Assembly: GCF_900103185.1 (NCBI RefSeq)
Contig: NZ_FNJD01000017.1
Coordinates: 1 to 64,000 of the forward strand
Reading direction: 5' to 3'
Source of the DNA: Sulfitobacter litoralis
GTDB taxonomy: Bacteria; Pseudomonadota; Alphaproteobacteria; Rhodobacterales; Rhodobacteraceae
Length of the DNA: 64,000 nucleotides
The stretch's first letter is position 1, and the number at the start of each line of letters is the position of its first letter. Shown one piece after another: positions 23,038 to 25,580 of this stretch. The position numbers and the translations under genes were made by a program. A model generated the notes under the pieces. It ran no database searches. It was not told the origin of the DNA and saw only the letters and a program-made list of their open reading frames with translations.

Positions 23038-23874
23038 TTAGCCCGCGACGCTGCGCAGCCCGAGAATGTCGCGCGCTTGCTGCCATGTCGCAACGGGACG
23101 TTCGTATTTCTCGCACAGATCTGCGGCACGTTTGATCAAGGCCGCGTTCGACGGGGCCAGCGTGTCTTTGTCCAGACGTACGTTGTCTTCCAGGCCGGCA
23201 CGCGTGTGGCCGCCTGCGGCAATGGCCCATTCGTTCACAACAATCTGGTTCGGCCCGATTCCTGCGGCACACCAAGCGGCTTCGGGGGCCCGCGCCTTCA
23301 TCTGTGCCACATAGAAATCAAAGACCTCTTTGTCGGCGGGCATGGCGTTTTTGACGCCCATGACGAATTGCACATACAGCCGCCCGAACAGTTTGCCGTT
23401 CTTGTGGTGCTGGATGGCTTGCAAGATATGGCTCAGGTCAAAGGCCTCGATCTCGGGGACGACTTCGTAGGTGCGCATTTCCGACGCCAGCCATTCCACT
23501 AGATCCGGCGGGTTCTCGTAGACGCGGGTGGGAAAGTTGTTCGACCCCACCGACAAAGACGCCATATCGGGCCGCAAGGACAGCATGCCGCCACGCGCCT
23601 CGCCCGCACCGGACCGCCCGCCCGTCGAGAACTGGATGATCATGCCGGGGCAGTGTTTCTCGACGCCCTCTTTCAGCCGCGCGAATTTTTCAGGGTCCGA
23701 CGAGGGGGTCTCGTCGTCGTTGCGCACATGAGCGTGGCAGATGCTCGCTCCGGCCTCGAATGCCGCATGGGTGCTTTCGATCTGTTCATTGATCGTGACA
23801 GGCACATTGGGGTTGGCGGCTTTGGTGGGCACGCTGCCGGTGATGGCAACGCAAAGAATGCATGGATCAGACAT
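23038..23874 (-). CDS. Beta-keto acid cleavage enzyme (BKACE, DUF849)
   Basis: A 278-residue TIM-barrel enzyme of the BKACE family, which cleaves a beta-keto acid with acetyl-CoA to give acetoacetate and a new CoA ester. Likely zinc ligands are H47 and H49 in CHAHVRND and E229 in GLEDNVRL, at the positions known from 3-keto-5-aminohexanoate cleavage enzyme. The family is also known to include beta-ketoadipate-active members. Its start overlaps the pcaG stop by eight bases, so it is translated with pcaHG. Context therefore favours beta-ketoadipate as substrate, giving succinyl-CoA and acetoacetate. Confidence 0.85.
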   Translation of the reverse strand: MSDPCILCVAITGSVPTKAANPNVPVTINEQIESTHAAFEAGASICHAHVRNDDETPSSDPEKFARLKEGVEKHCPGMIIQFSTGGRSGAGEARGGMLSLRPDMASLSVGSNNFPTRVYENPPDLVEWLASEMRTYEVVPEIEAFDLSHILQAIQHHKNGKLFGRLYVQFVMGVKNAMPADKEVFDFYVAQMKARAPEAAWCAAGIGPNQIVVNEWAIAAGGHTRAGLEDNVRLDKDTLAPSNAALIKRAADLCEKYERPVATWQQARDILGLRSVAG

Positions 23875-24472
23875 CTAGGAACACTGTCTCTTTCTCGCCC
23901 TGAAGGTAAATATCAAACCGATAGACGCCATCGGCCTCTTTCTCCGCGATCAGGGTCGCTACGCGGTTTTGATGTTCGATGCGGGTCAGCAACGGGTCTG
24001 CGCTGTTGTCGCTATCGGGGAAATACATGCGTGTATTCAAGCCGATATTGATCCCCCGCGCGACAATCCACAAGCTGATATGCGGGGCCATCATCCGCCC
24101 GTCAGGAAAGGGCACGGCACCGGGTCGGATGGTGTGGAACACCCATTCGCCGGTGTCATAGTCCCCCGCTTTGCGCCCCCAGCCGGTGAAGTTCGGGTCC
24201 GCCACGCCGCGTGGATCGTTGCCGGGATAGATCCCGTCGGCATCGGCCTGCCATATCTCGACCATGGCATCCTTGATCGCGGTGCCGGTGCCGTCAAAGA
24301 CCGTCCCCTTGAGGGTGATCCGTTCGCCCTTGGTATAGGCATTGACCATCTGCGCGCCCAGATCCTCAGGGTAAACACCGGTGATATCACAAAAATTAGG
24401 CACGCAGCCGATATGGACATAGGGCCCTGCTGTCTGGGACGGGCTTTCTTTCAACTGGGTCAGCTCTTGCAT
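23867..24472 (-). CDS. pcaG: Protocatechuate 3,4-dioxygenase alpha subunit
   Basis: A 201-residue intradiol dioxygenase subunit. The alpha subunit packs against PcaH and lacks the iron ligands. It has the family beta core with AGPYVHIGCVPNFCDI near the start and the segment GWGRKAGDYDTGEWVFHTIRP in the middle. With PcaH it cleaves protocatechuate to beta-carboxy-cis,cis-muconate. The start codon shares one base with the pcaH stop. Confidence 0.95.
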   Translation of the reverse strand: MQELTQLKESPSQTAGPYVHIGCVPNFCDITGVYPEDLGAQMVNAYTKGERITLKGTVFDGTGTAIKDAMVEIWQADADGIYPGNDPRGVADPNFTGWGRKAGDYDTGEWVFHTIRPGAVPFPDGRMMAPHISLWIVARGINIGLNTRMYFPDSDNSADPLLTRIEHQNRVATLIAEKEADGVYRFDIYLQGEKETVFLDV

Positions 24473-25203
24473 CAGGTCCCCTCCATCCGGTTTTCAAACA
24501 GGGTCGACCGGCGGCCCCGTAGCACGATATCGAACTTATAGGCGCGGGCATCCATTGGCACGGTATTGTCCATGTCCAGCGGTGCGATTAGCTGTTCAAC
24601 GGCGGCGCGTGACGGAATGCTTTGGACAATGGGGCATTTCCAGATCAGCGGGTCGCCCTCAAAATACATCTGGGTGATCAGCCGTTGCGCAAACCCCTGT
24701 CCAAACACGGAAAAATGGATATGCGCAGGGCGCCAGTCGTTCACCCCATTTGGCCAAGGATAGGCACCGGGTTTGACGGTACGCAGGCTATAGCCGCCGT
24801 TCTCGTCCGTCACCGTGCGCCCGCAACCGCCAAAATTGGGGTCGAGCGGGGCCAGATAGCCCTCTTTCTTATGGCGATAGCGTCCGCCCGCATTGGCCTG
24901 CCAGAACTCCAACAAGGCACCCGGCACGCCGCGCCCGTTCTGGTCCAGCACACGACCATGCACGATGATCCGCTGACCAATCGCCATCTCGCCGTCAGCG
25001 GCGTAGTTAAGGATCAGATCGTTATCCAGTGCGCCCAGCATAGTGTGGCCAAAGACCGGTCCGGTCTGTTCGCTCAACGTTGTGTTCATGGAAATCAGCG
25101 CCTTTTGTGGCGACCGCACCACCGACGTCTTATAGGCCGGTGCCAGCGCGGGCGGGTGCCAATTGCGGTCTCGGTGAAAGAACGCTCCGTTCTGATCGGT
25201 CAT
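24472..25203 (-). CDS. pcaH: Protocatechuate 3,4-dioxygenase beta subunit
   Basis: A 243-residue iron-binding subunit of the intradiol dioxygenase. The Fe(III) ligands expected in this family are visible: a Tyr in [17 protein letters not shown], the Tyr of [12 protein letters not shown] and the His pair of [11 protein letters not shown]. The intradiol core [13 protein letters not shown] is clear. It starts in an ATGA overlap with the pcaC stop. Confidence 0.96.
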
Positions 25204-25580
25204 TCGCCAGCTTCCATTTCCTGATAGGTCTGTTTCGCGAGCTTAAGCGCATGGTTCGCCTTTGGCACCCCCGCGTAGATGGCAACATGCTGGAACGCCT
25301 CTATCACGTCGGATTTGCTGGCACCGGTATTGGTGGTGGCACGGATGTGCATCGGGATCTCGTCAAAATTGCCGGTCGCCGCCAGCAACGCCAGCGTCAG
25401 CATTGATCGTTCGCGATGGCTGATCTTGTCACTCGCCCAGACCGTGCCCCAGGCTGCTTCGGTGATCAGGTTTTGAAACGGTGCATCCAGTTCGGTCTTT
25501 GCCGCCTCGGCGCGGTCGACATGGGCGTCGCCCAAGACGGCGCGGCGGGTTTTCATTCCGATCTCGCTTCGGTCTGCCAT
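25200..25580 (-). CDS. pcaC: 4-carboxymuconolactone decarboxylase
   Basis: A 126-residue AhpD-fold enzyme that converts gamma-carboxymuconolactone to beta-ketoadipate enol-lactone. Typical features are [25 protein letters not shown] and [29 protein letters not shown]. The ATG at 25580 follows GGAGAAGACC; an in-frame start six codons upstream is less likely. It is the first gene of the pcaC-pcaH-pcaG-BKACE unit. pcaB (cycloisomerase), pcaD (lactonase) and the regulator pcaQ are not in this window. Confidence 0.93.

Follow-up and report, generated by a model that had tools for sequence, protein, structure and literature searches.

The minus strand of the 64-kb window analyzed here, which lies on contig C18 of the Sulfitobacter litoralis genome (63 contigs, 3.68 Mb), carries the tandem genes pcaC, pcaH and pcaG followed by a gene for a β-keto acid cleavage enzyme (BKACE). 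Our results indicate that these genes are probably the middle of a protocatechuate branch that ends in BKACE, continues with ScoAB and a thiolase, and stands beside a canonical gene set on contig C26. In the proposed route, PcaHG would open the ring, and a PcaB-like enzyme (contig C36), PcaC from the window and PcaD (C36) would lead to β-ketoadipate. As its family, residues and gene context suggest, BKACE would convert β-ketoadipate and acetyl-coenzyme A (acetyl-CoA) to succinyl-CoA and acetoacetate. Acetoacetate would then take CoA from succinyl-CoA via ScoAB, encoded on contig C21 in this genome, and an acetoacetyl-CoA thiolase would cut the acetoacetyl-CoA. The net reaction, β-ketoadipate and CoA to succinate and acetyl-CoA, would equal that of PcaIJ plus PcaF, with C-C cleavage and CoA activation in swapped order and the ketone-body enzymes lending the final two steps.

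The operon, which serves the degradation of plant-derived aromatic acids in this marine bacterium, is transcribed in the order pcaC, pcaH, pcaG and BKACE. The pcaC gene (25200..25580) codes for a 4-carboxymuconolactone decarboxylase (TIGR02425, 188.3 bits; cut-off 155.7). It is overlapped by 4 bases by pcaH (24472..25203; TIGR02422, 367.6 bits; cut-off 296.4), which overlaps by 1 base with pcaG (23867..24472), coding for the protocatechuate 3,4-dioxygenase alpha subunit (TIGR02423, 235.1 bits; cut-off 126.25). The BKACE gene, of the 3-oxoadipate type (23038..23874), in turn overlaps pcaG by 8 bases. The overlaps of 4, 1 and 8 bases reported in an earlier reading made from the letters alone (the sequence-only reading) were confirmed from the coordinates of the open reading frames (ORFs). 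Its pcaC end at 25580 fits an ATG that is preceded by GAGGAG and is the likelier start, while the longest frame begins at GTG 25598. No pcaIJF genes were found in or beside the window operon: the four CoA-transferase profile matches in the genome are all on C21 and C26, and none of the 9 thiolase matches is on C18. The enzyme is an unremarkable representative of an established type, and the operon too is of an established type.

The window BKACE passes both the Pfam family PF05853 (301.4 bits; cut-off 24.8) and the equivalog NF053568, "3-oxoadipate:acetyl-CoA acetyltransferase" (483.9 bits; curated cut-off 350). It resembles the latter family in score, in residues and in its link to pcaHG, and nothing was found that sets the protein apart from it, while the regulator and box are missing beside this copy. 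Its nearest solved relatives (3chv, 3fa5, and 3no5; 504 bits against chain 3chv_A) are named only DUF849 or "uncharacterized". The protein is homologous over its whole length to Kce of lysine fermentation (NF052387), with catalytic residues common to both. Kce itself was ruled out as its identity, because the equivalog cut-off was missed (244.8 bits; cut-off 382). For the alignment with Kce, we assumed the zinc-ligand and catalytic positions and their roles, with a presumed chain offset of 6. On this basis, H47, H49 and E229 (zinc), S83, E143, R225, and D230 are kept and Thr106 is replaced by Ser; at position 83, Kce does not have the residue that we had assumed there. The window protein differs from Kce by Val15 in place of Glu14, which we take to be the amino-group binder, and by extra conserved basic residues. 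R87 and R117 were present in 80 of 80 clade sequences and K175 in 79 (79 loci plus the window; 1 of the 80 loci was dropped owing to a stop in its match), and all three are absent from Kce and from the BKACE on contig C38, making them candidate binders of the far carboxylate of β-ketoadipate. That second BKACE of the genome (L026:5778-6710) is below the cut-offs of the 4 NCBIfam models that it matched, with 160.2 bits against NF053568. The window BKACE is the best candidate for an enzyme giving succinyl-CoA straight from β-ketoadipate.

The junction between pcaG and BKACE is widely conserved. In 80 retained BKACE loci, pcaG was directly upstream on the same strand in 55, and 2 of the remaining 25 were cut short at that point. 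With the start of the tblastn match taken as the BKACE start, the 8-base overlap recurred in 22 of the 55 loci, and the gap was at most 10 bases in 35 of them. Because 55 of 80 loci share the adjacency and 22 of the 55 share the exact overlap, it is not a product of chance. A crude ORF chooser based on G+C content took the wrong strand in places, and the gene calls used here were fixed by tblastn.

Among 100 genomes of the family, nearly one per genus, pcaH was found in 64 and a BKACE over the cut-off in 69 (77 loci); absences are approximate, because draft genomes can miss genes. PcaI was called when identity to the C26 protein reached at least 50%. Of the genomes with pcaH, 58 had BKACE and 11 had PcaI, and they split into 51 with BKACE and without PcaI, 7 with both, 4 with PcaI alone, and 2 with neither (Fisher p = 0.006 for BKACE against PcaI in these 64, uncorrected for relatedness). 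The figure of 11 is generous and falls to 9 at 66% identity or more, because the PcaI-like proteins of G066 and G088 (52-54% identity) lie beside a TRAP-transporter gene, and tblastn detected no other pca enzyme gene in the 12 kb analyzed there. Many of the 51 genomes still contain a ScoA-type protein at about 40% identity, and in the 2 genomes with neither, pcaG and pcaB are separated by pcaF and a CoA-transferase pair of another type. This transferase, which we take to be of the CatIJ type and which is matched by Pfam CoA_trans and by no NCBIfam model, was considered as a possible cover for the canonical route and rejected: across the 100 genomes, only G014 and G059 have its A subunit at 60% identity or more, and neither of them has BKACE. 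PcaF was rejected as a marker, because TIGR02430 is also passed by a thiolase on contig C28 beside genes presumed to be of the phenylacetate type. BKACE lay within 4 kb of pcaH at 44 of 67 pcaH loci. In 20 named genomes picked from the 80 loci, PcaI (at least 68%) was found in 6 and in none of the 4 Roseovarius members, each of which has one ScoA-type gene (40-42%). In Roseovarius as a genus, 58 of 79 genomes carry BKACE, and at two of its loci (L063, L087) the gene is located between a PcaC-like gene and pcaB. A role of BKACE in place of PcaIJ is supported by the 51 of 64 pcaH-bearing genomes in which BKACE was present and PcaI was not found. These distributions suggest that the BKACE ending may be the usual route in this large marine group.

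In six loci, scoAB is located beside BKACE or one gene away (G039, G072, G099, and three plasmids, namely pP88_d and those of CB2047 and M. anthonyi). The order is pcaD-C-H-G-BKACE-pcaB-scoA-scoB in G039 (L112), and pcaC-H-G-BKACE-scoA in G072 (L111), where scoA overlaps BKACE and scoB follows about 1.9 kb further on. In G099 (L110), BKACE-scoA-scoB-benE is near a catechol-type dioxygenase gene, and the plasmids of Sulfitobacter CB2047 and Marinibacterium anthonyi are annotated with BKACE-scoAB next to a BenE-type or like-named (ydcO) gene. The fullest case is plasmid pP88_d of Phaeobacter inhibens (NZ_CP010729), with eight genes, pcaC-H-G-BKACE-scoA-scoB-pcaD-pcaB, overlapping at all junctions. 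From pcaC to BKACE, its gene order and annotated overlaps of 4, 1, and 8 bases are the same as in the window; unlike the window, which is limited to pcaCHG-BKACE, it also includes scoAB, pcaD, and pcaB in the one operon, with a LysR gene divergent from it. A search of the surrounding 14.8 kb, the rest of that genome being unsearched, detected no pcaF. The plasmid is typed as mobilizable, and the operon is about 1 kb from a ParB-family gene (L120, 76458-91291). In a plasmid megablast, only the NZ_CP010729 record, 1 of 42 matching records, covered 80% of the operon. In four compared loci, the A subunit was 81-89% identical to the ScoA of the S. litoralis genome and 37-38% identical to its PcaI. 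The most economical interpretation is that acetoacetate made by BKACE is activated by ScoAB. The sequence-only reading had proposed a shortened pathway, which is supported in part: the enzyme matches the 3-oxoadipate type of BKACE and is the best candidate for the direct formation of succinyl-CoA. The word "shortened" was rejected, since there is one more step and scoAB stands beside BKACE in relatives; because acetoacetate still needs CoA and a thiolase, and the sum is the same as with PcaIJ and PcaF, the pathway would be re-ordered.

The rest of the genome contains a second pca set. On C26 (L024, G000:C26:12000-31000), the genes pcaI, pcaJ, pcaF, a PcaQ-like LysR gene, pcaD, pcaC, pcaH, pcaG, and pcaB stand in a row, and the notion that pcaIJF is absent from the genome was rejected. 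TIGR02429 (pcaI, 331.8 bits) and TIGR02428 (pcaJ, 302.9 bits) each cover both PcaIJ and ScoAB, and the C26 pair is named PcaIJ because it adjoins pcaF (TIGR02430, 676.6 bits) and is distant from ScoAB; the C21 pair is taken as ScoAB. The PcaQ-like protein scores 285.2 bits, below the cut-off of 303.8, and the C26 pcaB passes NF004631 (436.4 bits; cut-off 371) and fails TIGR02426. The C26 region probably represents a plasmid or acquired DNA, because G+C over its pca genes is lower than in those of the window (54% and 60%), transposase and ParB-type genes and plasmid-type recombinase and helicase genes lie near it, and plasmids of Sulfitobacter and Pseudosulfitobacter match a neighboring segment at 83-85% identity. 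Contig C36 carries pcaD (317.9 bits, over the cut-off) and a pcaB-like gene, which together with the window genes would form a second route to β-ketoadipate. The prediction that pcaB, pcaD, and pcaQ lie outside the window operon was thus correct: C36 carries pcaD and the pcaB-like gene, and C26 carries pcaQ-like, pcaD, and pcaB genes. Judged by gene content, the genome appears to have both the BKACE branch and the canonical pcaIJF-QDCHGB set. A full pcaIJF set that is present and needed for growth had been named as a finding that would speak against the shortcut; the presence of the set, half of that finding, was observed.

The window operon appears to be stripped of its own pcaQ and operator. 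We examined the box ATAACC-N4-GGTTAT, presumably the PcaQ motif, in the closest loci (L030-L038), of which 7 out of 9 could be used, the region being missing from L030 and L036. In all 7, a divergent LysR gene of the pcaQ type and the box (0-2 mismatches) precede pcaC. Neither a LysR gene nor a box with up to 2 mismatches is present in the gap of 223 bases between pcaC and adhC in the window (25599..25821), no search for a further pcaQ elsewhere in the genome having been made. Three places with 2 mismatches occur in the whole window, and the gap between the LysR gene and pcaD on C26 has no such box. About 60 bases of the pcaC-adhC gap match (82-95%) sequence that separates adhC from the LysR gene in L031 and L038 and that lies on the corresponding side of the LysR gene in L032-L035. 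What flanks the LysR gene toward adhC in relatives thus stands before pcaC in the window. The pattern resembles an excision of the LysR gene together with its promoter from this locus. Parts of 14-38 bases recur elsewhere in the genome, so the stretch is partly a dispersed element. The adhC gene (25822..26937, plus strand), divergent from pcaC, codes for an S-(hydroxymethyl)glutathione dehydrogenase (TIGR02818, 604.4 bits; cut-off 543.95). This glutathione-dependent formaldehyde dehydrogenase is also located within about 4 kb of pcaC in four relatives (L031, L032, L033, L038). It is not a step of the pathway, and could serve formaldehyde from vanillate demethylation. Another LysR gene of the window, in the region 18529-21791, has OxyR as its best match (246.3 bits, below the cut-off of 329) and is divergent from a frame that we take to be catalase-peroxidase-like.

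Several observations weigh against a BKACE ending in this genome. The canonical set on C26 means that the window BKACE may not be needed, the missing pcaQ and box may mean low or altered expression of the window operon, and the C36 pcaB-like gene (288 bits; cut-off 355.75) is under every PcaB cut-off. The number of scoAB loci, six, is small compared with the 77 BKACE loci of 69 genomes, and those of G099, CB2047, and M. anthonyi may be one lineage, the BenE-type neighbor being common to them. Furthermore, 25 of the 80 BKACE loci do not have pcaG directly upstream, several of them showing no pca gene, and 11 of the 100 family genomes carry BKACE without pcaH. These copies away from pca genes imply that members of the clade may have other duties. 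It is possible, if rather doubtful, that the C26 set does the work and that the window operon is a residual copy, whose regulator disappeared once the plasmid-like set had come in. The completeness of the C26 set in one place, its plasmid-like features and the bare upstream region of the window operon are all in line with this. However, all 4 window frames are intact, and comparison with 7 relatives gives a dN/dS of about 0.03-0.13, although dS, at roughly 0.7 or higher, is partly saturated (BKACE dS was infinite for L038, and pcaC of L030 was unscored). The mean dN between the window and the relatives is higher than that among the relatives, yet it is within or close to their maximum, and relaxed selection is not shown.

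A different division of labor is that ScoAB acts as PcaIJ on β-ketoadipate itself, as it could, with a β-oxidation thiolase acting as PcaF and BKACE as an accessory. This is close to what has been proposed for Roseovarius nubinhibens (PMC12442348). In that study, pcaIJ was assigned by alignment and knockout, pcaF was dispensable, and crosstalk with β-oxidation was proposed. The CoA-transferase knockout stopped growth on 4-hydroxybenzoate, which the authors read as the loss of PcaI and which also counts against the BKACE ending, and a pcaF/acyltransferase double mutant reached a lower final density. However, the same knockout phenotype is expected if ScoAB activates acetoacetate made by BKACE. 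Moreover, growth was normal in the pcaF single mutant and was not abolished in the double mutant, and the mutants had increased levels of an acetyl-CoA acetyltransferase that was downregulated in the wild type (PMC12442348). This increase would be consistent with a thiolase acting on acetoacetyl-CoA. Most Roseovarius genomes carry BKACE (58 of 79), and R. nubinhibens may do so as well. We consider this explanation unlikely. It is very improbable that BKACE serves another β-keto acid and merely travels with the pca genes: BKACEs are promiscuous (PMC4922564) and copies exist without pca neighbors, but the NF053568 match, the tight pcaG spacing in many loci, the near-complementary presence with PcaI, and the L110 locus, where a catechol-type dioxygenase gene and BenE mark another source of β-ketoadipate, all argue against it.

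That BKACE may replace PcaIJ and PcaF has been published before for other genera. In Ralstonia eutropha H16, a COG3246 protein was described as a possible β-ketoadipate cleavage enzyme, with relatives beside protocatechuate 3,4-dioxygenase genes (PMC6449761). The BKACE groups relevant here are G3 and G4 of Bastard et al. 2014 (via PMC4922564 and PMC8963497), and β-ketoadipate is among the substrates of Bastard's groups (PMC4922564). For Methylobacterium, BKACE (kce) was proposed in place of PcaIJ/PcaF in pca clusters (PMC8963497, PMC12379598), similar to the window in that the gene is inside a pca cluster and the same function is proposed. Almost all of the clusters studied there were without pcaIJF, whereas the S. 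litoralis genome has the canonical set on another contig. M. extorquens given pcaHGBL and a possible kce gene grew on protocatechuate (PMC12379598). Two reports detract from this support: that growth test did not isolate kce (PMC12379598), and a Methylobacterium gene island was described with pcaIJ and pcaF (PMC12542667). Among the matches listed, no literature linking BKACE to roseobacter pca genes was recognized, subscription literature being outside the scope. The main text of PMC12442348 does not mention BKACE, keto acid cleavage, DUF849, aminohexanoate, acetoacetate, or acetoacetyl.

The main value of the BKACE-ScoAB ending proposed here is an alternative reading of the 2025 "pathway crosstalk" result in R. 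nubinhibens. If it is true, the CoA-transferase of that bacterium would be ScoA acting on acetoacetate, and the crosstalk would be the acetoacetyl-CoA thiolase step behind BKACE. This would explain both the dispensable pcaF of R. nubinhibens and the two decades without finding pcaIJ. A genome with both routes, such as that of S. litoralis, would permit the two to be compared directly within a single cell. Roseobacters are numerous in the sea, where they break down aromatics. Should most of them end the pathway with BKACE and ScoAB, searches with pcaIJ or pcaF as markers would miss them, and the database label "3-keto-5-aminohexanoate cleavage protein" hides the BKACE gene. Many members of a large marine family share this arrangement, which offers a testable alternative to a recent interpretation.

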